A stretch of DNA of 38,153 nt from Candidatus Saccharimonadota bacterium. Lineage in GTDB: Bacteria > Patescibacteriota > Saccharimonadia > Saccharimonadales > UBA4665. The stretch is taken from the NCBI GenBank assembly GCA_027327085.1, contig DAHWAT010000004.1:1-38153 (forward strand), given 5' to 3'. The notes under the pieces are model-generated. The model was not told the DNA's origin. It was given only the letters and a program-made list of their open reading frames with translations, and ran no database searches. Of the stretch, positions 9,687 through 37,823 are shown piece after piece; the first letter of the stretch is position 1, and every line of letters begins with the position of its first letter. The translations under genes were made by a program, and so were the position numbers.

Positions 9687-10112
9687 CTAACTACCATCTA
9701 GTGAAATATCTTCTGACTGGCCAATTGGCTTCAGAATGGTGCCAACTATCTGATCGACTTGATCGTCGGTTAAGTTTGCTTTAACTAAATAGCCTTCTAT
9801 TTTCAGATCTCTTAAGCTTGATGGGGCATCTGCTTCATTAAGATTGGAAATAATCAGAACCTTAATATCTTCGCCCCAATCTGATGAACGCATTACTTTA
9901 AGGATTTGTTCACCAGAAAGCTTAGGTAGCATTAGATCCAATAAGACAAGCTCGGGTCGATTCTTTTCTATCTCCACCAATGCCTGGATACCGTCGCCGG
10001 CCACGGCACATTTATAGCCAATTAGCTCTAGTCTAGTTTTATAGATTTCTGCAAGACTTGGCTGGTCTTCGACAATAACTATTTGGGCTTTTGTTTGATT
10101 ATTTTCATCCAT
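9687..10112 (-). CDS. Single-domain response regulator (CheY-like receiver)
   Basis: A 141-residue receiver domain without an output domain. The acidic pair is E15/D16, the phosphoacceptor is D59 (LVLLDLMLP), and the lysine near the end is in GYLVKAN. Such stand-alone receivers work by protein-protein contact or as phosphorelay intermediates. No kinase gene is adjacent; the nearest are about 11 kb away. TATAAT on the minus strand (10124-10119) ends 6 nt before the ATG, and no ribosome binding site is present, so the mRNA should be leaderless. The receiver identity is secure; the partner is unknown. Confidence 0.92.
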   Translation of the reverse strand: MDENNQTKAQIVIVEDQPSLAEIYKTRLELIGYKCAVAGDGIQALVEIEKNRPELVLLDLMLPKLSGEQILKVMRSSDWGEDIKVLIISNLNEADAPSSLRDLKIEGYLVKANLTDDQVDQIVGTILKPIGQSEDISLDGS

Positions 10113-18605: not shown

Positions 18606-19529
18606 CTACTTATAAAAAGTAACGTTAGCTGTTTCTTGGCCCTTGTGGGTAAAGATACTTATTGCTTTGACTGGCCTAGTGTTACTGGAACTGTCTTGGT
18701 TTCTAAAGAAGATACGGGCATCAGTTCTACTCTTACTTCTATATTGATCAACTAGTAGTAGAGCAACTGAGCCAAAGCTGGCTCTGGACATCAGTTTAGG
18801 TTTTAGTCCGGTAGCGTAAGCTTCAGCTTCACTAGCTACAGTCTTAAGGATTGGTACCAGATTCATGTCCTTACAGTTAACTTGACTTGGTACCACACAT
18901 TCTTTGCTGTGAGGAAAGTAGAAGTTCTGAGCAGGTTGGTCACCATTAGCACAGCTGATTTCATGATCATATTTAAGATTGCTTAAGACAAATCTGACAT
19001 CGTTATAATAATTGTTATTATTGGTATTAACATTACAGGCACCGACAATCTCAAAACTATGGGGTTGAATCTTCATGTGCTCAACATAGTTCATTGCCCC
19101 TTCTGAAGAAATTGCCTCACCATAGACGACTGTGTCACGGTAGAAATCTTCAACTTGAGTTAGGAATCTTAGTGGCCTGGCTTGACTGGCTAGGTTTTTT
19201 GACGGTGCTGCTAGAGCTATATCACTACTACCAAGAGCAGCGATAGAGCTTAATAGGGCTGCAGCGCCGTATTTAACTATCCTTAGATGTTTAGCTAGAA
19301 ATGGTTGGTTGAAATTATCTAAAGTATTAGGACTAGGTTCAGCTGACTTTGCACTATTTGTTTCTAGACTAGGCGTAGTTAGATCTGTTCGATCAGCTGT
19401 TTCTAATTGGTTGAGGGTATTATCCCACAGACTATCTACTTCTAGTGGTGTATCAATAAATGCACCTGGGTAGACTACATCTGCCTGATTGTCAGGATTA
19501 AGTGTTTGTAGCTTATTTAGTTCGCTCAT
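18606..19529 (-). CDS. Putative exported or membrane-anchored cysteine-containing protein
   Basis: Family not recognised; 307 residues. The first 80 residues are polar, acidic and low in structure. Then KHLRIVKYGAAALLSSIAALG and SSDIALAAPS (about 80-110) look exactly like a signal peptide with an AxA site after residue 108, but it lies internally. The mature part has four cysteines (165, 193, 211, 219), enough for two disulfides, and an Asn-rich loop (NTNNNNYYND). Either an unusually long signal n-region is used, or the helix is a type II anchor with the N-terminus inside. AGAGGA lies about 10 nt before the ATG. No in-frame Met offers a start just before the hydrophobic stretch. Confidence 0.7.
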   Translation of the reverse strand: MSELNKLQTLNPDNQADVVYPGAFIDTPLEVDSLWDNTLNQLETADRTDLTTPSLETNSAKSAEPSPNTLDNFNQPFLAKHLRIVKYGAAALLSSIAALGSSDIALAAPSKNLASQARPLRFLTQVEDFYRDTVVYGEAISSEGAMNYVEHMKIQPHSFEIVGACNVNTNNNNYYNDVRFVLSNLKYDHEISCANGDQPAQNFYFPHSKECVVPSQVNCKDMNLVPILKTVASEAEAYATGLKPKLMSRASFGSVALLLVDQYRSKSRTDARIFFRNQDSSSNTRPVKAISIFTHKGQETANVTFYK

Positions 19530-19785: not shown

Positions 19786-20721
19786 ATGACAATTAGAAAA
19801 ACGGTAGGTATTAGCTCTATAACACTAATTATAGCTACTGTTTTAACAGCTTTTTATGTATTGGAGGAATTACTTCTGCCGATTAACCACGTAAGCGCCA
19901 GTGGCTATGGCTTATCGGCGATTGACTATAGGCTAGTTAGTATCCTGGTTAATTTGCCACTAATTATTATTTGGTTTGTGGCTTTTTGGGGCTATAGCCA
20001 GCTTAAAGCTTACTCTAAAAGCCTGGGCAACAGCCGCGAAGCTCCGGCCTATAGAAGTTTAGCTATCGGCATAGCTTGGTTAACTTACGGTCTAATTATA
20101 AAAACCATGGTTGAGCGTTTGCTAGCTGCCCTCAGCAATACTAACCCAGCCTTAGTTGGGCCAACCACCATCATTAGCAGTTACCTAAATTTAATCTTGC
20201 CGCTTATTGGTTTTATTATAATCTTTGCCGCCTCTAAAACCTTAATGCGACTGCAATCTAGCCTGACTAAAACCATAAAGCCCCTCCAGTTGATGGGCTT
20301 ATGCCTAGTTGCTGGTGCTATCTATAACTTTACCTATATTCGAGCAGCCGGCCTACATAGTATTTCTAGTCACAATAACATCTATAATTTACCAGGCTGG
20401 CTACTGTTAATTAGCTTAATCTTACCTTACTTATACGCCTGGCTAATTGGGCTTACAGCCTCTTATCAACTAGGTCTGATCAGTCTTCACTCTTCAGGTA
20501 TTCTTTATAAAAAAGCTCTGTCTTACTTAACAATCGGCCTGATTACCATAGTTATCGGTTTTATGTTTAACCAGTACTTGTCGGCTATTTGGCCACTTAA
20601 AAATCATTTAGTTTTAAATTATCAGTTAATCATCATACTGCTATTTCGCATCATCAGCGGCATAGGCTTCATTATTGCCGCAATCGGGGCTAACAAATTA
20701 AGAATGATTGAGGAGCTATAA
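19786..20721 (+). CDS. Eight-TM membrane protein in a signalling operon
   Basis: Family not recognised. It is a 311-residue integral membrane protein with about eight hydrophobic helices (near 7-27, 49-70, 90-115, 127-148, 163-183, 205-232, 243-262, 275-300) and short loops. It begins a four-gene operon with a 92-residue protein, a soluble PAS kinase and a receiver. Its stop codon overlaps the next start by 1 nt (TAATG). The kinase has no membrane segment, so this protein is a good candidate for the membrane input module, though that is inference. AGAGAAGG lies just upstream of the ATG. It carries no obvious heme or metal motif. Confidence 0.75.
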   Translation: MTIRKTVGISSITLIIATVLTAFYVLEELLLPINHVSASGYGLSAIDYRLVSILVNLPLIIIWFVAFWGYSQLKAYSKSLGNSREAPAYRSLAIGIAWLTYGLIIKTMVERLLAALSNTNPALVGPTTIISSYLNLILPLIGFIIIFAASKTLMRLQSSLTKTIKPLQLMGLCLVAGAIYNFTYIRAAGLHSISSHNNIYNLPGWLLLISLILPYLYAWLIGLTASYQLGLISLHSSGILYKKALSYLTIGLITIVIGFMFNQYLSAIWPLKNHLVLNYQLIIILLFRIISGIGFIIAAIGANKLRMIEEL

Positions 20722-20999
20722 TGGCTAAACTATCCAATAGCTCAACCTACAATCAGGTTGTCGAGGTGACACGCAAGTACCTTGGCCCAGCTGCTGAGCG
20801 GTTTATTAATAGACAAGTGTCTAATCACCTCAAAAAAAACCCTAAACAACTAACCAAAGCCGATTTAGCTAGTTTAATCGATTGGATCAAAGTCATCGTA
20901 TCTTTAATCACTGAAGACACGTCTATTGTTGAAGAGTACATCTCAGAACTAAGTAAGCTGAGTATGCCAAAAAGCCAAAAAGGGAAGGCTAACCCGTGA
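20721..20999 (+). CDS. Small linker protein of signalling operon (92 residues)
   Basis: Family not recognised. It is small and mostly helical: a basic segment around RKYLGPAAERFINRQVSNHL, the Lys-rich KKNPKQLTKADL, then an amphipathic helix (LIDWIKVIVSLITEDTS) and a basic tail. It overlaps the upstream membrane-protein gene by 1 nt and the downstream kinase gene by 4 nt (GTGA), so all three are translationally coupled. It may be an adaptor between the membrane protein and the kinase. That rests on position only. Confidence 0.7.
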   Translation: MAKLSNSSTYNQVVEVTRKYLGPAAERFINRQVSNHLKKNPKQLTKADLASLIDWIKVIVSLITEDTSIVEEYISELSKLSMPKSQKGKANP

Positions 21000-22114
21000 A
21001 TCAAGCTAATTTAAAGCTATCTCAGCAGAAGTCAATTCGAAAGTCTAAGGAAGCTGATGCTCTTTTCAATAGTATCGGTGAAGGAGCTATCACTACCGAT
21101 GAGTTTGGCCGTATCACCCGAGTCAATAAGCCAGCCCTAAAAATGCTTGGGTTTCATAAAAGCGAACTGATTGGCCAGCCTTTTCTAAAATTAGTCATAG
21201 CTGAAGATTTTGACGGGAAAGTAATTGGCACGATTGACCGACCAATAGTTCAGGCTTTTTTAACCGGACAGTCAATTTTAACTAAATTAAACTATCGGAC
21301 TAAAAAGGGAACTTTACTGCCTGTAGATATTAGCATTTCGCCCTTGATGCTCAACAATCGACCAGTAGGAGCAATTGAAGTTTTTCGCGACATTAGCCTA
21401 GAACAAGAAATCGACCGCATGAAAAGCGAGTTCATATCTCTGGCATCACACCAACTAAGAACGCCTTTATCGGCTATTAAAACCTACTCTCATATGCTAA
21501 GAGACGGCTATATGGGTAAACTAAATAAACACCAAAAGAGCTCCCTAGACACAATTATCGGCGCTACCAATCGAATGAACGAATTAATATCAACCCTGCT
21601 TAACATTAGCCGGATTGAAAGCGGCACGATTAATGTTACTCTGAAAAAGAATAATATTGAAAAGGTTATCAAAGAAATTATCCCGGAATTAACACTAATT
21701 GCCGATGCTAAGGCAATAGAGTTTAAGCTTGTATCTACATCAACTGAATCGCTTGAAATCGTCACCGACGCCTTAATCGTTAAAGAAATAGTAACTAACC
21801 TAGTCTCTAATGCTATTAAATATACCGAGGCTAACGGCAAAGTATGCCTAACCATAGCTCCTAGAAAACAAGATATCCTACTAAAAATCAAAGACAGTGG
21901 TTGGGGCATCCCTGAAATAGCTCGCGATAAAGTTTTTACTAAATTTTACAGAGGTTCTAATATCGTTAGTAAAGAAACCAATGGCACAGGCTTAGGCCTT
22001 TATTTGGTCAAAGGCCTAATTGAGGCTATCAACGGAAAGATTTGGTTTAAAAGCGTTGAGAAAAAGGGTACAACTTTTTATGTTAGTTTACCAAGAGAGC
22101 TTGACTTAAAATAG
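20996..22114 (+). CDS. Soluble PAS-domain sensor histidine kinase
   Basis: A 372-residue cytoplasmic kinase. A PAS domain (about 20-135, with GEGAITTDEFGRITRVN) is followed by the HisKA dimerisation helix with phosphoacceptor H152 in LASHQLRTPLSA. The ATPase domain has the N-box EIVTNLVSNAIKYT, DSGWGIP and NGTGLGLYLVKGL. There is no membrane segment. The GTG start (20996-20998) overlaps the upstream TGA and is preceded by AGGGAAGG. The likely partner is the receiver at 22222, and the likely input is the eight-TM protein. The PAS ligand is unknown; redox, heme or flavin sensing would fit the neighbourhood but no ligand residue proves it. Confidence 0.93.
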   Translation: MNQANLKLSQQKSIRKSKEADALFNSIGEGAITTDEFGRITRVNKPALKMLGFHKSELIGQPFLKLVIAEDFDGKVIGTIDRPIVQAFLTGQSILTKLNYRTKKGTLLPVDISISPLMLNNRPVGAIEVFRDISLEQEIDRMKSEFISLASHQLRTPLSAIKTYSHMLRDGYMGKLNKHQKSSLDTIIGATNRMNELISTLLNISRIESGTINVTLKKNNIEKVIKEIIPELTLIADAKAIEFKLVSTSTESLEIVTDALIVKEIVTNLVSNAIKYTEANGKVCLTIAPRKQDILLKIKDSGWGIPEIARDKVFTKFYRGSNIVSKETNGTGLGLYLVKGLIEAINGKIWFKSVEKKGTTFYVSLPRELDLK

Positions 22115-22221
22115 TAAGAAATTAGACAATCTAATGCTCTAGTCTTATGATATAAGTAATAGAGTAAAACTAAAACCTCAAGCAAATTGACGGTTTAATT
22201 AATCAAGGGGAGACAATATTA

Positions 22222-22632
22222 GTGGCCAAAATATTAGTAGTAGAAGACGACCGTGATCTTAATAAAGCATACTGCATTATCTTGAGACATGAAGGTCATG
22301 ATGTTGTCGCTGCCTTTGACGGTAAAGAGGCCCTAGTTAAGTTAAGTGAAATTAAACCAGACCTTGTCCTGCTAGACCTACTAATGCCGGTGATGGGTGG
22401 CTTAGAATTTCTTAAAGCCTGGGCCGATCATAAGAAAAATGATGCTAAGATTCTGCTGTTTACTAACATGGAGAACTCACCCGAAATCTCTGAAGCCTAT
22501 AAGCTAGGGGCTAGTCGCTGTATTATTAAGAGTTGGACGGCGCCTCATAATCTAGCCAAGGTAGTTAACGATACTTTAAAAAGCGATAGTTTTAAGAAAA
22601 TAAAGTCTAGGCCAAAAGTGCAGAAGGTTTAA
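22222..22632 (+). CDS. Single-domain response regulator
   Basis: A 136-residue receiver with E8/D9/D10, phosphoacceptor D52 (LVLLDLLMP), the Thr of LLFTNME and the Lys in RCIIKSW. There is no output domain. GTG start at 22222, with AAGGGGAG (22205-22212) about 9 nt upstream. It follows the PAS kinase after a 107-bp gap and is probably its cognate receiver. Its 3' end overlaps the converging Crp/Fnr gene by 26 bp, so the two transcripts are antisense at their ends. Without a DNA-binding domain it must act on another protein. Confidence 0.92.
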   Translation: MAKILVVEDDRDLNKAYCIILRHEGHDVVAAFDGKEALVKLSEIKPDLVLLDLLMPVMGGLEFLKAWADHKKNDAKILLFTNMENSPEISEAYKLGASRCIIKSWTAPHNLAKVVNDTLKSDSFKKIKSRPKVQKV

Positions 22633-23311
22633 GATCAGCAATAAACTGATCGTTGGCAATCTGAAATAATTTACTTAGATTAAGCACATAAGGCGTATTT
22701 TTGGTATAGGTAATAATACCTGCTCGTTTTAACTTATTAAGCTCGGTTGCAGCCGTCTCGCGGGTAAGCCCAGTCAGGTTAGCAAAATCTTGATGAGTCA
22801 GATGAATGGTCAATTCTACCGTCTGGTTATTAATGACTTTGCCATGAGTTAAAGCTAAATAATGTAAGGTGTAAATTAACTTATCGCTAGCTCTGGAATG
22901 CTGCAAAGCATTCAACCTCATAGAGCCGCCTAATTGATCAGTCAAAAAACGGTCCATTTCCTGATAAAGTAACTCAGGGCTTTTCTTAATAAAATTAACG
23001 TAGCTTTTCCGATCTATCAAGTAAACTTCAACTGATGAGGTAAACGCCTCATAGTAAAACACGGCACTAGGCAGTTTAGCGTAGACCCAGGTTGCCGGAA
23101 AAACATGAGTCTCTTGGTAAAAAGCTATTGGTTTTTCTTCTCCGTTAACACTTAAATTATAGGCTTTAACGATACCACTTTTAACGGCGTAGGCATGCTG
23201 AGGAGCTTCCCCTTGAAAAATAATTATCTCGCCTTTTTTAAATTTTCTAACAGGATGACGCTCTAGAAATACTTTTAAATAATTATTAGCTACTCTATCA
23301 AGCATGGCCAC
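22607..23311 (-). CDS. Crp/Fnr family transcriptional regulator
   Basis: A 234-residue protein with an N-terminal cyclic-nucleotide-binding-type beta-roll (about 20-110, with KKGEIIIFQGE) and a C-terminal winged helix (about 150-220). The recognition helix region is LTHQDFANLTGLTRETAATELNKLK in part. It contains no cysteine at all, so it cannot hold an Fnr-type iron-sulfur cluster. GTG at 23311 is chosen because AAGG (23322-23319) lies 7 nt before it; an ATG at 23305 is the alternative. It lies between two two-component systems and about 2 kb from the cyo operon, so respiratory control is plausible. No target site was found. Confidence 0.9.
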   Translation of the reverse strand: MAMLDRVANNYLKVFLERHPVRKFKKGEIIIFQGEAPQHAYAVKSGIVKAYNLSVNGEEKPIAFYQETHVFPATWVYAKLPSAVFYYEAFTSSVEVYLIDRKSYVNFIKKSPELLYQEMDRFLTDQLGGSMRLNALQHSRASDKLIYTLHYLALTHGKVINNQTVELTIHLTHQDFANLTGLTRETAATELNKLKRAGIITYTKNTPYVLNLSKLFQIANDQFIADLKPSALLA

Positions 23312-23508: not shown

Positions 23509-24189
23509 ATGAAGATATTAGTTATTGAAGATGAGCCGAAAATTGCCCAAGCAATCAAGAAGGGACTAGAGTTAAAAAAATTTGCCGTTGACGTTGTCTA
23601 CGATAGCGACAATGGCTACTCCTATGCGTCAGACCCGGATTATGACGTAATCGTTTTAGACCGTATGCTGCCCGGTAGTATGGATGGGGTAGAGCTGTGT
23701 CATAAGCTAAGACAAGAAAGCATTAAAACCCCTATTATCATGCTAACTGCCCGTGGCACCATCGGCGATAAAGTCGAAGGTCTAAATAGCGGCGCTGACG
23801 ATTACCTCGTCAAACCATTCTCGTTCGACGAACTGATCGCAAGAGTCAAGGCCTTACTTAGACGCCCGCCTGAACACTTAGGCACATCTTTGCAAGTTGG
23901 CGATTTAACCCTCGATACTAATTCCTATGAAGTCAAACGAGCGGGTAAGCCGATAAAGTTGTCCTCTAAAGAATTTTCACTGCTTGATTACTTCATGCAT
24001 CATCCCGGTCAGATAATTACCAAGGACATGATTATCAACCATGTTTGGGATCAAGATGCCGATGTCTTACCCAATACAATTGAGGTCTACATCGGTTATC
24101 TAAGAAATAAAATTGATCGACCATTTCCTAAACAAAAACCAATGATCATAACCGTTCGTGGGTTTGGTTATAAAATCGAGGATAGCTAA
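23509..24189 (+). CDS. OmpR/PhoB family response regulator
   Basis: A 226-residue two-domain regulator. The receiver has E7/D8/E9, phosphoacceptor D51 (VIVLDRMLPG), MLTARG and the Lys in DDYLVKPFSFDEL. The C-terminal winged helix (about 130-224) carries SSKEFSLLDYFMHHPGQ and the Arg/Gly-rich GFGYKIE end. It is followed after 2 nt by its kinase gene, a classic two-component pair. The pair lies upstream of, and convergent with, the cyo operon. The transcript is probably leaderless. Confidence 0.95.
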   Translation: MKILVIEDEPKIAQAIKKGLELKKFAVDVVYDSDNGYSYASDPDYDVIVLDRMLPGSMDGVELCHKLRQESIKTPIIMLTARGTIGDKVEGLNSGADDYLVKPFSFDELIARVKALLRRPPEHLGTSLQVGDLTLDTNSYEVKRAGKPIKLSSKEFSLLDYFMHHPGQIITKDMIINHVWDQDADVLPNTIEVYIGYLRNKIDRPFPKQKPMIITVRGFGYKIEDS

Positions 24190-24191
24190 AT

Positions 24192-25202
24192 ATGTTTCGT
24201 TCGGCAACTCTTCGCTTAACTTTATCTTATTTAACGATAGTTATGGCTATTAGCTTGGTGTTCAGCGCCCTACTTTATAACGAAACTACTCGTGATTTAA
24301 GCCAGGGCTTGAGGAGTGAATCTCAGTCTATTTTTAGCCAATACCCGATTTTTCAAAATGACCCGAGTCTTAACCTTCAGCCCACTCATTATTATCGAGC
24401 CGAAGCCCACCGCATATTAATTCGCTTAATTGGCTTTAATCTAATTGTTTTAGTAGTAGCCGGCTTTTCCAGTTATTGGTTAGCCGAGAAGACCCTTGAA
24501 CCAATTATAGCTGCTCACGATAGGCAAAGGCGCTTTACTTCTGACGTATCTCATGAGCTAAGAACCCCCTTAACGGCTATTAAAATGGAGAGTGAGGTAG
24601 CTCTATTAAGCACTAAAACACCAACTAGCGAGTTAAAACAGACGATTAAAAGCAATCTGGAAGAAGTCGCAAAGCTAGAGACACTAATCAATAACTTATT
24701 GAAGTTATCACGGTTAGAAACGACCGACCTAAAAGCCAACTTTAAAGCCGTGAACGCCAAAGATATGGTCGAACAAGCTGTTAAAAAATTAGAAAGTAAG
24801 TCTAGTAACCATCATGTGCTCATCGATGTACCCGATAAACTTACCCTGTATGGCGATAGCGATAGCCTAGAACAACTAACTATTATCCTGTTAGATAATG
24901 CTCTGAAATACAGCCCAAAAGACAGCAAAATCAACATCAAAGCCTATTTAAATAACCATCAGACTATTTTGGAGGTAGAGGATAACGGCTATGGCATTTC
25001 CCCTAACAACCTGGAGAACATTTTCGACAGATTTTATCGAGTCGATAATTCAAGAAATAAAGGCCAGGAAAGCGAAGGTTATGGATTGGGTCTAAGTATC
25101 GCTCAAATGATTGCCGATCTTCATGATGCCGAAATAACCATCACTAGCCAGGTAAGTCAAGGGACTAGCGTCAAAGTACGTTTTCCGTCAAGCAAAACCT
25201 AA
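24192..25202 (+). CDS. Membrane sensor histidine kinase
   Basis: A 336-residue kinase with two membrane helices (about 8-28 and 76-97) flanking a short external segment of some 47 residues. Only about 10 residues separate the second helix from the HisKA domain, so there is no HAMP domain. The phosphoacceptor is H121 in VSHELRTPLTA. The ATPase domain has LLDNALKYSP, DNGYGISP and GYGLGLSIAQM. It starts 2 nt after its OmpR-type partner and ends 8 bp before the converging cyoE gene. The small external domain suggests sensing of a small ligand, ions or membrane state. Confidence 0.94.
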   Translation: MFRSATLRLTLSYLTIVMAISLVFSALLYNETTRDLSQGLRSESQSIFSQYPIFQNDPSLNLQPTHYYRAEAHRILIRLIGFNLIVLVVAGFSSYWLAEKTLEPIIAAHDRQRRFTSDVSHELRTPLTAIKMESEVALLSTKTPTSELKQTIKSNLEEVAKLETLINNLLKLSRLETTDLKANFKAVNAKDMVEQAVKKLESKSSNHHVLIDVPDKLTLYGDSDSLEQLTIILLDNALKYSPKDSKINIKAYLNNHQTILEVEDNGYGISPNNLENIFDRFYRVDNSRNKGQESEGYGLGLSIAQMIADLHDAEITITSQVSQGTSVKVRFPSSKT

Positions 25203-25210
25203 ATTAACCG

Positions 25211-26128
25211 CTAGACTATCAACCTAGATACCGGCAGCATAACTGCCATGATTAGTAGGATAGCTAGAGAAGCTATAAAGACCTTTTTAGCCCAAGCCGT
25301 CGCATTACTACTATCAACTGGCTTATAAGCCAGATGTAGCCAATAGCTACCAATCACTACCATGACACCCAAAAAACTATAGCCGCTGTAGCCAAAGAAA
25401 CTTAAAAGAGCACTAACGATTATAAGCGAAAAGACATAGAACCTTATTTGTTTAACCGTACTTGCCAGACCTCGCTTAATCGGCCATAGCGGTAAATTAG
25501 CCCCTTTATAATCACTTAACCTATAAATAGCTATGGCATAAAAATGAGCCATTTGCCAACAAATCATGAGGGCTAATAGTAATACACAAGCGAAATTAAG
25601 TTTGTTTGTAAATGTAGTGTAGCCGGCTACTAGTGAGGCAGCCCCAGGCAGAGTGCCAACTAGAGTTGAATAAACGCTGTGGCGTTTGGCGAAACCGTAA
25701 ATAATAACGTAAAAAACAACCGCTAAGATACCAATTAGCAAGGTAAGTTTATTAGTTCCTCTAAGCACGATGAGGCCGATTACCAACATAACTAGGCCTA
25801 AAGAAAGCGCATGTCTTATGCTAACCTGTCCGGTCACGATAGCCCGTTTTTTAGTTCTTTCCATACGCTCATCAATTCTTCGATCAAGTACATTATTAAA
25901 AATACAAGCCGCCCCAATTAGCAGCGACATACCAATGATTAAAGCTAAAAACTGACCTAATTTTAGCTGCCATTTACTGGCTAAAAGATAACCAGCCGTG
26001 CCTGTTAATACATTGGCATAAACAATCCCTGGTTTAATCAATGAATAGTAGGTTTTAAAGCTAGGTTTAGGTTGATCCTGCTTTAACCTGGAACTGGGGC
26101 GCCTAGACGACCTAAAGTCCGCTGTCAT
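25211..26128 (-). CDS. cyoE: Heme O synthase (protoheme IX farnesyltransferase)
   Basis: A UbiA-family prenyltransferase of 305 residues with about nine membrane helices. It adds a farnesyl group to heme b to make heme O for the bo3 oxidase. The first Asp-rich motif is NNVLDRRIDERMERTKKRAI, and the second polar loop is YRLSDYKGANLPLW. The first 24 residues form a basic cytoplasmic extension. The start overlaps cyoD by 17 nt, and no later Met fits before the first helix. It is the last gene of the cyo operon, in the same order as the Escherichia coli operon. Confidence 0.94.
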   Translation of the reverse strand: MTADFRSSRRPSSRLKQDQPKPSFKTYYSLIKPGIVYANVLTGTAGYLLASKWQLKLGQFLALIIGMSLLIGAACIFNNVLDRRIDERMERTKKRAIVTGQVSIRHALSLGLVMLVIGLIVLRGTNKLTLLIGILAVVFYVIIYGFAKRHSVYSTLVGTLPGAASLVAGYTTFTNKLNFACVLLLALMICWQMAHFYAIAIYRLSDYKGANLPLWPIKRGLASTVKQIRFYVFSLIIVSALLSFFGYSGYSFLGVMVVIGSYWLHLAYKPVDSSNATAWAKKVFIASLAILLIMAVMLPVSRLIV

Positions 26129-26495
26129 CTTGTTGTTTCATATATTTATCAATCTGAGACGGTAAGAACATACGGTGATTTAGGTTATGCATTATCCAAA
26201 TAGACCCACCAACTAAAATCAAGACTACTGTTATCATAAAACCAAAAACGACTAGCTTAAGTCTTGGTTTGGTTTCTTTACCTAAATGCAAGAATAGAAC
26301 TAGCTGAGTAATTGCTTGAATAATCGCTAGGGTTGCTACAACCAGAGCTATCGCCCAGTTCTGCGACAGAACATGATTAACGGTTAAGCTGTAAGCTAGC
26401 AACGTACAGGCTAGGCTTAATAAAAAGCCAGTCACGTAAGCTCTATATGATGCTTGATTAGGATTGTGCACCGATACGACCATTGCTTTGCTCAT
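26112..26495 (-). CDS. cyoD: Cytochrome bo3 quinol oxidase subunit IV
   Basis: A 127-residue protein with three membrane helices (about 22-42, 50-70, 84-106), the usual form of CyoD. It includes the characteristic TQLVLFLHLGKE loop. It is thought to assist assembly of subunit I and its copper site. It overlaps cyoC by 4 nt (ATGA) and cyoE by 17 nt, so translation of the operon is tightly coupled. Confidence 0.93.
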   Translation of the reverse strand: MSKAMVVSVHNPNQASYRAYVTGFLLSLACTLLAYSLTVNHVLSQNWAIALVVATLAIIQAITQLVLFLHLGKETKPRLKLVVFGFMITVVLILVGGSIWIMHNLNHRMFLPSQIDKYMKQQDDSGL

Positions 26496-27124
26496 ATATT
26501 AAGCCCTCCGCTTATTAGATAGACAACGCTAAAGATAAAGATCCAGATAAGATCAAGAAAATGCCAAAATAGACTCATTAAAGTTAGCTGTCTGACTGTT
26601 ATCCGGTTTAAACCCTTTTTTAGCACTTGGAACATCATCGTACCAATCCAAAGCAACCCAATCGTAATATGCAGGCCATGAGTAGCCACTAAAGTGAAGT
26701 ATGAAGATAAAAAGCCACTCCGGCGCCAGCTGTCACCTTGATTGACAAAGTTGGCAAACTCTCTAAACTCTAAAACCAAGAAGGCTAAACCGAGCAAGAA
26801 GGTAATCAAAAGCCAAAACAGGACCAACCTTTTAGCCTTGTTCTGAGCCGCCAAAATAGCTAGTCCGCAAGTAAAGCTACTAGTTAAAAGTATCAGTGTT
26901 TCGGCAAGAGCGTAAGGCAAGCTAAACAAACTATGCGCACTTGGCCCATTAAAGGTATTAGCATGCAGCACGGCAAAGGTGGCAAAAAGACTGGCAAACA
27001 AGACACAATCGGTCATTAAATAGACCCAGAAGCCAAAATAAGTTTTACTGTCGGCTTCAGCCTTTAGGCTAGCCTGGTTAATCTTGTAAGAATCTACAGC
27101 CGAGTTAAGCTCACTCACGCGCAT
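26492..27124 (-). CDS. cyoC: Cytochrome bo3 quinol oxidase subunit III
   Basis: A 210-residue heme-copper oxidase subunit III with five membrane helices, as in quinol oxidases. FGFWVYLMTDCVLFASLFATF marks the first, in part, and VATHGLHITIGLLWI and FWHFLDLIWIFIF are conserved segments. It stabilises subunit I near the proton entry of the D pathway. It overlaps cyoB by 14 nt and cyoD by 4 nt. GTG or ATG alternatives near the start were not needed, since MRVSELN follows naturally inside the cyoB end. Confidence 0.94.
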   Translation of the reverse strand: MRVSELNSAVDSYKINQASLKAEADSKTYFGFWVYLMTDCVLFASLFATFAVLHANTFNGPSAHSLFSLPYALAETLILLTSSFTCGLAILAAQNKAKRLVLFWLLITFLLGLAFLVLEFREFANFVNQGDSWRRSGFLSSYFTLVATHGLHITIGLLWIGTMMFQVLKKGLNRITVRQLTLMSLFWHFLDLIWIFIFSVVYLISGGLNI

Positions 27125-29102
27125 AATCCTTCCATGAAGTCATACTTGCTTCAATTTGGTTAATTGTTTTAACCGATACAATTTCTTCGTGCTCACCACT
27201 TGTGGTTCTAATTAAGACAGTTAAAATAATGCCAATTAGGCCAATCGGCGCCAACACCCATAAGTGCCAAATCATTGAAAAGCCAAAAATAAAGGCAAAT
27301 ACGGCAATGAATAGACCAGCAGGGGTATTCTTTGGCAAATGAAGCGCTACTATTTCAGATTCAGGTAAGTCTTTGCGGTGCTTCATGTCCCAAAAGGCAT
27401 CGCGGCTTCTGACTACCGGCAGTACGGCAAAGTTATAAAAAGGTGGCGGGGAAGCGGTTGACCATTCTAAAGTACGGCCGTTCCAGGGATCACCGGTTAT
27501 ATCTTTAGTCTCATCGCGTTTTATGATGCTATAGATAACCTGGACAAACTGTACGGCTATACCGCAGGCAATGATGGCACCACCTATCCCGGCTGTCACA
27601 AATAGTAAATGCCAGCCCGTAGCCGCACTATAATGATCAAGTCGCCGAGTAGCTCCCATCAGCCCCAAGATGTATAGTGGGCCAAAGGCTACAACAAAAC
27701 CGATAATCCACAAATATGCGGCATATTTGCCGAGTTTATCATTTAGCCTAAAACCAAACACTTTCGGGAACCAATAGGTAATTCCGGCAAAATAGCCAAA
27801 TAATACACCACTAACTATCATGGTGTGGAAATGAGCCACTAGGAATAGGCTGTTATGTAATTGAAAATCAATTGCCGGAACAGCCATCAAAACTCCAGCT
27901 ACACCGCCCATGGTGAACAGAAAAATAAAACCCATAAACCAAATCATGGGTGAAGTAAACCTAATTCTGCCTCTATACATGGTAAATAACCAGTTAAAAA
28001 TCTTCACCCCAGTGGGAATGGCAATGAGCATGGTAGCGATACCAAAAACTGCGTTGACATTAGCGCCAGCCCCCATCGTAAAGAAATGGTGTAGCCAAAC
28101 TCCGTAAGATAAGACAACTATAGCCATAATTGCCCAAACCATCGACTTGTAGCCAAATAAGCTTTTCGACGAAAAAGTTGACACAACCTCAGAAAAAATA
28201 CCAAAAGCCGGCAAGACTAAAATATAGACCTCTGGATGGCCCCACGCCCAAATCAAATTAACATACATCATGGCATTACCCCCACCACCAGCCGTGAAGA
28301 AATGAGTCCCAAGAGTCCTATCAAGAGCAAGTAAAGCTAAGGTAACCGTTAGAATTGGAAAGGCAAAGGCTACTAAAACCATAGCTCCTAGTACACTCCA
28401 GGAGAACAAAGGCATTTTCATTAGACTCATACCCCTGGCTCTTTCTTTTAAAATAGTGGTGATGAAATTAATACCTGACATCAGTGAACCGATACCAGCA
28501 ATTTGTAAACTCCATATCCAATAATCTACGCCGGTTGTCGGGCTATACTTTAGTTCTGAGAGCGGCGGGTAAGCTAACCAGCCTGCAGCCGAAAAATCAC
28601 CTAAGCCTAAGGAAACGTTAATTAGTAAAGCTCCAGCAGCAAATAACCAAAAACTAGTAGCGTTCATAAACGGAAAGGCAACATCCCTAGCTCCGATTTG
28701 TAGTGGCAAAACTAGGTTAATTAGGCCAAACATCAGCCCCATAGCCGCAAAGAAAATCATAATCGTACCATGGGCGCTGGCTACCTGCTGAAACATTGAT
28801 GCCGACATAAAGCCATGGCTGCTACCTACGCTTGTGGCTTGCTGCAGCCTCATCATGGCCGCGTCAGATGCACCACGTAGTAACATCAGTATAGCCACAA
28901 TAAGATACATGACACCAATTTTCTTGTGATTAGTGGTAGTTAACCATTCCCGCCAAAGCCAAGTCCAGCGTCTAGTCAAAGTGATAAGTAATAAAATAGC
29001 AATGATTAATATGACTACACCTATGGCTGCCGCTGCGGTGACTAGGCTAGTTGGAAAGACATTACCGCCAGAAAAACGACCAAAAAGGTTAGCTAGGTAC
29101 AT
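27111..29102 (-). CDS. cyoB: Cytochrome bo3 quinol oxidase subunit I
   Basis: A 663-residue heme-copper oxidase subunit I, the same length as Escherichia coli CyoB as I recall it. Visible ligands: H111 and H426 for heme b, H424 for heme o3, and H289, H338 and H339 for CuB, with cross-linked Y293 (WGHPEVY). D140 (D channel), E291 and K367 (K channel) are present, so oxygen reduction and proton pumping should be intact. R76 and D80 of the quinol site are conserved, but the position matching His98 of E. coli appears to be Met103 (ASMFQQ). Its ATG overlaps the cyoA stop by 1 nt. The sequence resembles proteobacterial CyoB strongly, suggesting ancient transfer. Confidence 0.97.
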   Translation of the reverse strand: MYLANLFGRFSGGNVFPTSLVTAAAAIGVVILIIAILLLITLTRRWTWLWREWLTTTNHKKIGVMYLIVAILMLLRGASDAAMMRLQQATSVGSSHGFMSASMFQQVASAHGTIMIFFAAMGLMFGLINLVLPLQIGARDVAFPFMNATSFWLFAAGALLINVSLGLGDFSAAGWLAYPPLSELKYSPTTGVDYWIWSLQIAGIGSLMSGINFITTILKERARGMSLMKMPLFSWSVLGAMVLVAFAFPILTVTLALLALDRTLGTHFFTAGGGGNAMMYVNLIWAWGHPEVYILVLPAFGIFSEVVSTFSSKSLFGYKSMVWAIMAIVVLSYGVWLHHFFTMGAGANVNAVFGIATMLIAIPTGVKIFNWLFTMYRGRIRFTSPMIWFMGFIFLFTMGGVAGVLMAVPAIDFQLHNSLFLVAHFHTMIVSGVLFGYFAGITYWFPKVFGFRLNDKLGKYAAYLWIIGFVVAFGPLYILGLMGATRRLDHYSAATGWHLLFVTAGIGGAIIACGIAVQFVQVIYSIIKRDETKDITGDPWNGRTLEWSTASPPPFYNFAVLPVVRSRDAFWDMKHRKDLPESEIVALHLPKNTPAGLFIAVFAFIFGFSMIWHLWVLAPIGLIGIILTVLIRTTSGEHEEIVSVKTINQIEASMTSWKDYARE

Positions 29103-29968
29103 TATAGCTTTGCTCCAGTCATATATTGATTAATGATGTCACTAAATAAATTGTCGGCCGGGTCCTTATAATAAGCCACCGGATTATATTCGCTAGGCCT
29201 TGCTAATTTTTTATAATTGGCAATATTTAAGCTTAGGCGTGATTGACTTAGTTTATGCAGCCAAGACGAAAAAGCTTGGTAATTAAGACTCAAAGCCTCA
29301 AAATGCATACCGGCAAAGCCCTTGCCGCTAATATTAGCCGACGAGCCATAATATGAGCCTAACTTAGAAGCTTCTAAATTAAGCTGAGTCATCATGCCTG
29401 GCATGGCATAAATTTGCCCTCCTAAAGATGGGATCCAGAACGAATTCATAACCGTATCAGAAGTTATATAAAAATGCACCGGATGATTAACCGGTATAGC
29501 CAGTTGGTTGACACTAGCGACAGACTGGTTTGGGTAAATAAACAGCCATTTCCAATCAAGTGAAACAACCTCAACATTAATTGTCGAGTGAACAGAAGCA
29601 ATCGGCTTATACGGATCAAGTGCGTGTGAACTAGTCCAAGTAACAACCGACAGTACGGCAATAATCGCCATAGGGATACCCCACCAAATAGTCTCTAGAA
29701 CCCGACTATGGTCCCAATTTGGTTCATACCTGGCCTTTTTATTTGATTCTCGATACTTAAGCGCTATTAAAATAGTTAAACTATAAACCGGAATAACTAC
29801 AAAAGCCGCCAAAATTAGAGCGAACACGAATAGGTTTCTTTCCTGAGCGGCAATTGTTCCGGCAGGTGTTAAAACTGGCACATTATGTTGACTTAAAAAA
29901 ACAATTAATAGCCCTATGACCACCAAAACCGGCAAAGCAATAATTAATATTTTTCTTTTTGTGCTCAT
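29102..29968 (-). CDS. cyoA: Cytochrome bo3 quinol oxidase subunit II
   Basis: A 288-residue subunit with two membrane helices (about 8-27 and 46-72, a third hydrophobic stretch 95-112) and an external cupredoxin domain. The CuA ligands (CxxxC) are absent, as expected for a quinol oxidase. VVSLDWKWLFIYP, SFWIPSLGGQIYAMPGM and PSEYNPVAYY match the CyoA pattern. There is no cysteine near the N-terminus, so unlike the E. coli protein it is not a lipoprotein. First gene of cyoABCDE, with AAAGGTGG before the ATG and its own promoter upstream. Overlaps cyoB by 1 nt. Confidence 0.95.
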   Translation of the reverse strand: MSTKRKILIIALPVLVVIGLLIVFLSQHNVPVLTPAGTIAAQERNLFVFALILAAFVVIPVYSLTILIALKYRESNKKARYEPNWDHSRVLETIWWGIPMAIIAVLSVVTWTSSHALDPYKPIASVHSTINVEVVSLDWKWLFIYPNQSVASVNQLAIPVNHPVHFYITSDTVMNSFWIPSLGGQIYAMPGMMTQLNLEASKLGSYYGSSANISGKGFAGMHFEALSLNYQAFSSWLHKLSQSRLSLNIANYKKLARPSEYNPVAYYKDPADNLFSDIINQYMTGAKL

Positions 29969-34619: not shown

Positions 34620-37600
34620 GTGAATAAAGACTTGAGCGATGCATTTTCAAAACTCAACGCACAACAAAAAAAAGCTGTTGAGCTTATAGATGGTCCTGTG
34701 CTGGTTATAGCTGGACCAGGTACTGGAAAAACCCAATTACTGAATCTAAGGGTTGCCAATATTTTAGCTAAAACCGATACCGACCCCAGCCAAATCCTTT
34801 GTTTAACTTTTACCAATGCCGCCGCTACTAATATGAAAGAGCGGCTGTTTGGTCTAATCGGGGTTAGCTCACGAGCCGTCAATATTAAAACCTTTCATAG
34901 TTTTGCTGCAGAAATCATGTCTGAGTATCCCGATTATTTTTGGAGTGGTGCCCGATTAAGTGTCGTCCCAGAAGCCGTTCAAAAAGCTATCATAGATAAT
35001 ATCCTTGCTGGGCTGCCTCTAGATAACCCTTTGGCCAGCCGTTTTGAGGATAATTTTACAGCTACCAGTGATATTTTATCAGCCTTGAGACTGACTAAAG
35101 AAGCCGGTTTAACACCTGAAAAATTGCTAGCTTTAATTGAAGTCAACGATAGATACATCGATTTAATCGAGCCCGAATTAGCCGAAATCACAAGTAATCA
35201 ACTAAGTATTAAAAAGCTAGACGATTTAGAGCAAAAAATTAGCCAACTACCTGACCAAAACATCGACGACCTAGTCGCCCCCTTAAGTTCATTGTCAGCC
35301 GTTATTAAATCAAGCCTGGCAGTGGCTGTCGAGGAAGATAAACTAACCAACAAGACAACCGCTACTAGTAAATGGAAAGCACGCTGGACAAAGAATATAG
35401 GTGGCAAACGGGTGATGTATGAAGAAAGGAGGCGTAACCAGTGGTGGAGACATCTAGCTGAAGTTTACAGTCTATATCGTAACCACTTACATCAAAAAGG
35501 CTATTATGATTATTCCGACATGCTAGTTGAAGTCCTATCGACTCTTGAGCAACAACCAGAACTACTTACTTTAGTCCGTGAACGATATCTCTATATTTTG
35601 ATCGATGAGTTCCAAGACACTAATGCCGCCCAACTAAGACTAGCTCATCTGGTAGCTTCAGCTCAAGATAGTCAAACCACACCAAACATCATGGCAGTAG
35701 GCGATGACGATCAATCAATTTTTGCCTTTAACGGTGCTGAGCTTAATAACATGTTGTCGTTTAATAAGTTATATCCCAGCGTTAAAACCATCTTTTTAAC
35801 CGAAAACTACCGCTCAAACCAAGCAGTTTTAGATGCTGCAGCATCAATTATTAGCCAAACGGATAATCGTTTATCTGTTTCTAGGGGTTTCTCTAAAGAC
35901 TTAAGGGCGGCTTTAGACCACCCAAAAGGTAAGATTGAGCATCTAATTTATCCAACTAAAGAGCACCAACTGGAATTTATCGCTCAACGAATAAAAGCCG
36001 ATCGGGAAGCAGATTCTAGTCGCTCCATAGCAGTTATAGCTCGAAAGCACAGCAGCTTAAAAGACATCTCTAGCTATCTTTTAAAATATGATGTTCCCTT
36101 GGTGTACGAGAAGCAAAATAACATACTCGAGCTTGAGCTTATACAGCAAATTATTATTCTAGCCAGATTACTTTCGTCTATTGCGTCCGGCAATAACCAT
36201 GAGGTCAACTATAACTTGTCCAGTTTGCTATTTTACCCAGCCTGGCAAACCAGTCCAAAACTACATTGGCAGCTAGCCCTTAGCATCGAACGACAGGGAA
36301 GTTGGCTCGAGGCTTTAGCTCAATCTGGCAATGACTATTTCAGGCAACTGTACAATTGGCTTTTAAGCCTAAGTAGTCAGAGCATGACTCAACCTTTAGG
36401 CGTCGTAATTGAATATATGATCGGCCTGCGTGAACTTGAAGCTTTTTCTAGCCCTTTAAAAGCTTATTACCTAGATAAACGTACTATCGATAACCATTAT
36501 CTGGCAAATTTGTCGGCCATCTCACTGCTAATTAGTCATGTTCATGAATTCGTAGCCACCAGCCACACTACTCCATCGCTTAGCGATTTTATAGACTTTA
36601 TTACCGCTACCCCAGCTATAACTGATAGTTCTTGGTATATCGCTCACGAAGAAGCTGTCCAACTACTAACTGTCCATAAAGCCAAAGGTTTAGAGTTCGA
36701 TAAAGTCTACATTATTGATGCCATCGAAAAAAATTGGTCACCGAGTAGTAAAGGCCGTAAAGCACCATCTAACTTACCCTTGCAACCTATTGGTGAAGTC
36801 TACGACGATTATGTGCGTATGGCCTACGTAGCTGCCACCAGAAGCCGTTCTAGCCTCATTATTAGTAGTTATATGGTTGACCAAACCAACAATGCCGTGC
36901 TGCCGTCTAGCTTATTCTCAGCCTTTTCAAGTCACCATATCAAAAAGATAGAGGCTAACCATAGCGCAGAATCACTCAAGACTAAACTTACTTGGCCGAG
37001 ACTAGAAAAAGCCGATGAACGACTTTTACTCAAACGTCGCCTAGAAGACTACAGCTTAAGTGCCACCGGCTTAATCCAGTATCTAGATGTTAGTCAGGGT
37101 GGACCTAGTCAATTTTTGGAGCGTCAAATTTTAAACTTACCCCGTCCTAAAACCGCTTACATGGCTTACGGCATAGCCATGCATGCTGCCATGCAAACTG
37201 CTCAAAATCTAGTCAACCACGATCGTTTTGACAAAGGACTGATTGTTCAAGCTTATAAACTAAGCCTAGAAGAGCAACAATTACCGGCAATTGAATTTTC
37301 CAAGTATTTAAATCACGGTAAGTTAATGCTAGATAGACTGTTTGATGATTACCACTTGCAGTTATCATTTAATGATCTTAGCGAAGTCGGCATTAGTAAC
37401 GTTGACATAGGCCCAGCCATTATAAACGGCAAGATCGATCACATCCACATCGATAAAAAGAGTCTTATTATTACCGACTATAAAACCGGTAAGTCACTTT
37501 CCAGTTTTCAAACAAAAGATAAAACTAAAGCAATCAAAGTCTGGCGACAGCGAACCCAGTTATTGTTTTATTGTTTACTAGTCAGCCAGGCTAAACGACT

Positions 37601-37823
37601 TAAAAACTATTCCGACATCAGTGCACAAATAACTTATCTTGAGGCTGATAACCCGAAGCATTTAAACTTAGTTCTAAAACCCGATCCTAGCGAACTAGAC
37701 AGGACTCGCCGCTTAATTGAAGCTGTTTGGTTAAAAATCCATAGCTTGGACTTTAGTTTAACCCCAATCTATCAACCCACCATAGATGGCATAGAAGCCT
37801 TCGAACAAGACTTGTTAAAATAA
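34620..37823 (+). CDS. UvrD/Rep-type helicase fused to RecB-like nuclease
   Basis: A 1067-residue superfamily 1A helicase with a C-terminal PD-(D/E)XK nuclease. Helicase motifs in order: Q-motif LNAQQKKAV (12-20), Walker A AGPGTGKTQ (31-39), LIDEFQDTNAAQL (near 327), GDDDQSIFAFNGAE (near 360), TENYRSNQAVL (near 395), TVHKAKGLEFDKVY (near 684) and VAATRSRSSL. The nuclease has GKIDHI, ITDYKTGKS and QLLFYCLL (near 938-990). No four-cysteine iron-sulfur cluster is obvious. The architecture recalls AdnB/AddAB subunits and fits double-strand break processing or handling of incoming DNA. GTG start. No partner subunit is in the window. Confidence 0.92.
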   Translation: MNKDLSDAFSKLNAQQKKAVELIDGPVLVIAGPGTGKTQLLNLRVANILAKTDTDPSQILCLTFTNAAATNMKERLFGLIGVSSRAVNIKTFHSFAAEIMSEYPDYFWSGARLSVVPEAVQKAIIDNILAGLPLDNPLASRFEDNFTATSDILSALRLTKEAGLTPEKLLALIEVNDRYIDLIEPELAEITSNQLSIKKLDDLEQKISQLPDQNIDDLVAPLSSLSAVIKSSLAVAVEEDKLTNKTTATSKWKARWTKNIGGKRVMYEERRRNQWWRHLAEVYSLYRNHLHQKGYYDYSDMLVEVLSTLEQQPELLTLVRERYLYILIDEFQDTNAAQLRLAHLVASAQDSQTTPNIMAVGDDDQSIFAFNGAELNNMLSFNKLYPSVKTIFLTENYRSNQAVLDAAASIISQTDNRLSVSRGFSKDLRAALDHPKGKIEHLIYPTKEHQLEFIAQRIKADREADSSRSIAVIARKHSSLKDISSYLLKYDVPLVYEKQNNILELELIQQIIILARLLSSIASGNNHEVNYNLSSLLFYPAWQTSPKLHWQLALSIERQGSWLEALAQSGNDYFRQLYNWLLSLSSQSMTQPLGVVIEYMIGLRELEAFSSPLKAYYLDKRTIDNHYLANLSAISLLISHVHEFVATSHTTPSLSDFIDFITATPAITDSSWYIAHEEAVQLLTVHKAKGLEFDKVYIIDAIEKNWSPSSKGRKAPSNLPLQPIGEVYDDYVRMAYVAATRSRSSLIISSYMVDQTNNAVLPSSLFSAFSSHHIKKIEANHSAESLKTKLTWPRLEKADERLLLKRRLEDYSLSATGLIQYLDVSQGGPSQFLERQILNLPRPKTAYMAYGIAMHAAMQTAQNLVNHDRFDKGLIVQAYKLSLEEQQLPAIEFSKYLNHGKLMLDRLFDDYHLQLSFNDLSEVGISNVDIGPAIINGKIDHIHIDKKSLIITDYKTGKSLSSFQTKDKTKAIKVWRQRTQLLFYCLLVSQAKRLKNYSDISAQITYLEADNPKHLNLVLKPDPSELDRTRRLIEAVWLKIHSLDFSLTPIYQPTIDGIEAFEQDLLK

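Follow-up and report, generated by a model that had tools for sequence, protein, structure and literature searches.

In the window analysed here, a stretch of 38,153 nucleotides from a Candidatus Saccharimonadota bacterium, the genes for an eight-helix membrane protein (TM8), a small soluble protein (LINK), a histidine kinase and a lone receiver form one row (Table 1), as a preliminary description made from the sequence had it, and these genes probably encode a two-component system in parts, that is, a receptor-adaptor-kinase-receiver chain made of separate polypeptides. In other bacteria, one or two proteins often combine the counterparts of these components. The split-sensor reading offered in the preliminary description is supported by our analysis and accounts best for the conservation data. 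For the physical contacts, the direction of signalling and the target of the receiver, we infer the following scheme: TM8 would serve as the membrane input, a receptor without an output domain; LINK would dock on the cytoplasmic face of TM8, the likely contact being the conserved C-terminal end with the invariant Glu309, and would pass the conformational change of TM8 to the soluble PAS kinase, by which the lone receiver would be phosphorylated; the target of the receiver would in turn be another protein, most probably the CRP/FNR regulator encoded next to it.

Table 1. Components of the row, its conserved neighbour and inserted membrane sensors in related loci (window positions unless a locus is given)
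Feature	Coordinates	Strand	Remarks
TM8, eight-helix membrane protein, 311 aa	19786..20721	+	ORF, AF2 model; 4-TM units at residues 5-165 and 166-311; proposed output-less receptor
LINK, 92 aa, soluble helical protein	20721..20999	+	YLGPAA motif; STAC-type adaptor (most likely)
Soluble histidine kinase, 372 aa	20996..22114	+	PAS-HisKA-HATPase_c, H-box SHQLRTPL, without TM segment
Stand-alone receiver, 136 aa	22222..22632	+	Response_reg; single-domain response regulator
CRP/FNR-family regulator	22607..23311	-	cNMP_binding and HTH_Crp; conserved neighbour, convergent with receiver
Stand-alone MASE1 proteins, 362-370 aa	L055:5537-6649 and L104:6260-7348		between LINK and kinase

The overlaps by which the preliminary description coupled the first three genes, 1 nt between TM8 and LINK (TAATG) and 4 nt between LINK and the kinase (GTGA), are both present; the kinase and receiver genes are separated by 107 nt and do not overlap, and the 3' end of the CRP/FNR gene, which had escaped that description, shares 26 nt with the 3' end of the receiver gene. 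The search for this neighbourhood in other genomes, proposed at the outset, showed that the TM8-LINK-kinase-receiver set recurs in many Saccharibacteria. Sixty relatives were searched and inspected and named genomes were then added, yielding 44 distinct LINK loci, some of which lack parts of the set because they are cut by contig ends. TM8 adjoins LINK in 40 of these loci, the kinase belongs to the cluster in 40 and the receiver in 35, and a CRP/FNR gene convergent to the receiver is found in 26. Conservation of the row across more than 20 genera, together with the co-occurrence of TM8 and LINK, exceeds chance. In a set of 93 genomes from the family, 34 contain TM8, 36 LINK and 32 both (Fisher p 3e-18; this value, like that for the phylum, is inflated by the kinship of the genomes), and in a 380-genome sample of the phylum LINK was found in 5 genomes and TM8 in the same 5 and one more, with one further weak match. 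The mean pairwise identity is 37% for TM8, 54% for LINK, 57% for the kinase, 65% for the receiver and 58% for the CRP/FNR regulator; that TM8 is the most variable part fits the expectation for an input.

The flanks of the row hold several other genes of note. A 307-aa protein with a hydrophobic segment and no family is encoded between an ABC transporter pair and TM8 (18606-19529, minus strand); in L042 an LPG_synthase_TM gene takes its place, and genes of similar size occupy this position in other loci. The CRP/FNR gene is followed by a classical pair of an OmpR-type regulator and a membrane histidine kinase (23509-25202), and several other loci have comparable pairs in the vicinity of the cluster. 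Next comes a cytochrome bo-type oxidase operon (25211-29968; COX1, COX2, COX4_pro and a CyoE-like gene), also found near the cluster in L045, L051, L063 and L104; neighbouring genes of about 535 aa were considered as terminal oxidases, and the two that were scanned proved to be phosphoglucose isomerases. Farther downstream, the window encodes a UvrD helicase of 1067 aa with a C-terminal PD-(D/E)XK nuclease domain (34620-37823).

The AF2 model of TM8 (pLDDT 88, pTM 0.87) consists of eight long helices, in agreement with the eight membrane segments initially assigned to it. Scans of Pfam, NCBIfam and PHROGs yielded no family for TM8, with no SSF match in the Pfam scans, and nothing significant emerged from a profile search of the PDB; the family scans of TM8 and LINK included a weak match to DUF7521 (E 0.003) in one of 30 members. 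The two halves of TM8 match each other over 137 alignment columns (probability 98%, E 7.9e-14), with a score of 83.5 as against 19 for the reversed control and at most 29 for 60 local shuffles, which at the sequence level marks TM8 as a tandem duplication of a four-helix membrane unit. Most of the invariant residues are Pro, Trp, Tyr, Gly or Leu, to which Glu309 is added at the cytoplasmic end. The alignment of relatives contains no well-conserved His, Lys, Arg or Asp in the membrane helices, so that heme, retinal or ion-coupled binding appears unlikely. Accordingly, TM8 was rejected as a heme binder for want of a conserved His, and as a microbial rhodopsin because the helices have no conserved Lys (a partial K occurs only at 307, near the cytoplasmic end) and the PDB matches to rhodopsins are insignificant. 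As a guess, the signal might be some hydrophobic cue, or TM8 might respond to the membrane state. TM8 is a new family of duplicated membrane proteins and a proposed new receptor.

The statement in the preliminary description that neither TM8 nor the small protein belongs to a recognised family stands for TM8, as far as Pfam and NCBIfam are concerned, but not for LINK, which closely fits the STAC family. The STAC proteins, typified by Af1502, are short (about 60-90 aa), carry an LGPx(x)A motif between h1 and h2 of a four-helix bundle made of two hairpins, and are encoded beside receptors ending in HAMP; according to its authors, Af1502 itself escapes detection by sequence searches (PMC4834066). 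LINK is soluble and, at 92 aa, a little longer than this range (its relatives span 78-112 aa as longest ORFs, with true starts that may be later). The LGPx(x)A motif is present in 25 of 29 LINK proteins, with F for L in one or more; three of the other four have LGPAG and one has LGLEA. In the AF2 model (pLDDT 87), DSSP assigns three helices (9-37, 46-63 and 67-81) as against four in Af1502, and the top fold match in the PDB is Af1502 (probability 0.90, TM 0.50/0.65, but E 1.1). No family was found for LINK in the Pfam, NCBIfam and PHROGs scans, and its PDB profile search gave nothing significant. The hhalign comparison with fused SLC5-STAC domains, taken from RpuS-type kinases on plasmids, was not significant either for LINK (E 0.13; 23 of 200 shuffles scored as well) or for the LINK profile with the Chloroflexota members included (E 0.11). 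For this reason we speak of a STAC-type protein rather than a proven STAC member, and most likely LINK is a stand-alone adaptor of this type. The signalling role of STAC is described as still unknown. A related domain joins the SLC5 membrane domain of CbrA to the cytosolic signalling domains (PMC4834066), and in a cryo-EM structure of CbrA, STAC is packed beneath the membrane domain, from where, as the authors propose, it relays movements to the kinase (PMC13022988). Growth on the respective substrates was still seen when CbrA and CrbS lacked STAC (PMC5715377), and the module may thus be less important than supposed.

Relatives of LINK also go with output-less receptors in a second phylum. A search of 400 Chloroflexota genomes with the LINK profile, in which neighbourhoods played no part, returned six genomes, namely the Dehalococcoidia-labelled genome of L106 and five more (one match at E 5e-13 and four between 4e-5 and 0.003); the comparison of the LINK profile with these relatives gave a probability of 98.9 and E 1.3e-17. 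All six adjoin a receptor that ends in HAMP and has no output domain, five of these receptors being scored by Pfam and that of L136 (417 aa) being judged by its close similarity to them. The receptors are dCache-HAMP proteins in L106, where nothing follows HAMP, and in L134, L135 and L137, and a 279-aa HAMP protein in L133. The LINK domain stands alone in two cases (75 aa) and forms the N-terminus of a TPR-type protein in the four with the weaker matches. The latter proteins, of about 480-560 aa, are encoded in L134, L135, L136 and L137 directly after the output-less receptors, starting 3 nt after the receptor gene or slightly overlapping it.

Tandem duplication is common in transporters, and TM8 might instead be a transporter or channel, with LINK regulating flux and the kinase merely controlling expression or reading the state of the protein, as proposed for STAC in SLC5 proteins. 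The ABC transporter pair found upstream of TM8 in many loci and the very name of STAC, which refers to a link to solute transport (PMC4834066), are in line with this explanation. We nevertheless consider it unlikely, given that TM8 matches no transporter family and has no well-conserved charged residue within its helices, and that the Chloroflexota relatives of LINK adjoin Cache-HAMP or HAMP receptors, not transporters.

The kinase consists of PAS, HisKA and HATPase domains, and the absence of a membrane segment, noticed from the start, was confirmed. It has the motifs NLVSNAIKY, DSGWGI and GTGLGL in addition to the H-box, and the same motifs are found in most relatives; judging by these H, N and G boxes and the receiver domain, kinase and receiver qualify as orthodox two-component proteins. 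The cluster kinases of the relatives also have no hydrophobic segment, with the sole exception of L107. There, the kinase (L107:3227-4972) bears an N-terminal membrane region of its own, with about five segments and no relation to TM8, and is followed by two receivers; the idea that this region carries a TM8 half was unsupported. The receiver contains only Response_reg (E 1.8e-20) and, as first described, no output domain; by position only, the CRP/FNR neighbour is the best candidate for its target. A second lone receiver domain protein without an output domain (141 aa) is encoded at 9687-10112 on the minus strand of the window.

The kinase is complete and soluble, and it could sense a cytoplasmic cue via its own PAS domain, with TM8 and LINK serving only to anchor it or to control its stability; three LINK-kinase clusters with no detected adjoining TM8 (L063, L074 and L075) would agree with such an arrangement. 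Against it stand the retention of TM8 beside LINK in 40 of the 44 loci, with a conserved cytoplasmic end, and the presence of extra TM8-LINK pairs in genomes that have the full cluster, so we hold this explanation to be distinctly improbable. The extra pairs (L064, L066 and L069) have no adjoining kinase, an arrangement that the preliminary description had counted as potential refutation, but because the same genomes (G015, G001 and G003) also hold a complete cluster, they look like additional receptor-adaptor pairs rather than counter-evidence. Copies of TM8 without LINK exist in some genomes, such as a paralogue convergent with a CRP-family gene (L072:6686-8313); in L071 (G030:C23:9519-10124) the TM8 match falls in three pieces inside a shortened frame, so that the gene looks reduced. 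In G034, TM8 is on a different contig from LINK, kinase, receiver and CRP/FNR gene, and the receptor would have to work in trans. In two loci a stand-alone MASE1 membrane sensor lies between LINK and the kinase as a second separate input, which, together with the extra TM8-LINK or TM8 copies, suggests that several inputs may feed one kinase. That the gene products do not interact and the genes share a transcript merely for reasons of dosage or common regulation is very unlikely: Saccharibacteria genomes are compact and the flanking ABC pair and the CRP/FNR gene are also conserved in many loci, but the set survives reordering (kinase-TM8-LINK-receiver in L103, L105 and L107) and stays together in the distant lineages L100, L103, L104, L105 and L107 while the flanks change, and the Chloroflexota LINK relatives accompany unrelated output-less receptors.

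The proposed chain of TM8, LINK, kinase and receiver can be set beside several known systems. In the chemoreceptor-CheW-CheA-CheY system, the receptor, soluble adaptor, soluble kinase and single-domain receiver are likewise separate. The parts are not homologous, however: the kinase here is of the HisKA type with a PAS domain, TM8 has no chemoreceptor signalling domain, and Pfam detected no CheW-like or CheA domains in LINK or the kinase. MASE1, MASE3, HisKA_7TM and further multi-TM sensor domains are also polytopic membrane inputs of signalling proteins, but TM8, a tandem duplication without a fused output domain, has no Pfam match to any of them. The SLC5/STAC histidine kinases CbrA, CrbS and RpuS share the order membrane module-STAC-PAS-DHp-CA, although theirs is a single polypeptide with an N-terminal 13-TM SLC5 transporter domain, whereas here there are three polypeptides, eight TM segments, no SLC5 match and no significant match between the LINK and fused STAC profiles; the order of CbrA, here split into three polypeptides, suggests the succession TM8-LINK-kinase. 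Closest in the adaptor is the Af1502/Af1503 pair of Archaeoglobus fulgidus, where a small helical LGPx(x)A protein of 60-90 aa is encoded beside a membrane receptor without an output domain, but here the receptor is TM8 with its 4+4 TM duplication, not a sensor-TM-HAMP protein, and the same row includes a soluble PAS kinase and a lone receiver, which are not described for Af1502 (PMC4834066). Among the titles listed by a literature search on Saccharibacteria two-component systems, no paper dealt with this system.

No effector is recognised for receptors whose sequence ends with HAMP, Af1503 among them. We tentatively raise the possibility that stand-alone STAC proteins are general adaptors that connect output-less receptors to separate soluble kinases, in a CheW-like role played by unrelated parts, and that with this row all four members of such a chain can be named for the first time, namely a receptor of a new 4+4 TM class, an adaptor, a kinase and a receiver. 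The evidence supports placing the adaptor beside the known but poorly understood STAC family, with a proposed receptor that is new. The row thereby offers a small protein set for asking directly whether a STAC protein connects a receptor to a separate kinase, and, besides a new duplicated membrane protein family, it adds a signalling layout to a group whose genomes are highly reduced.
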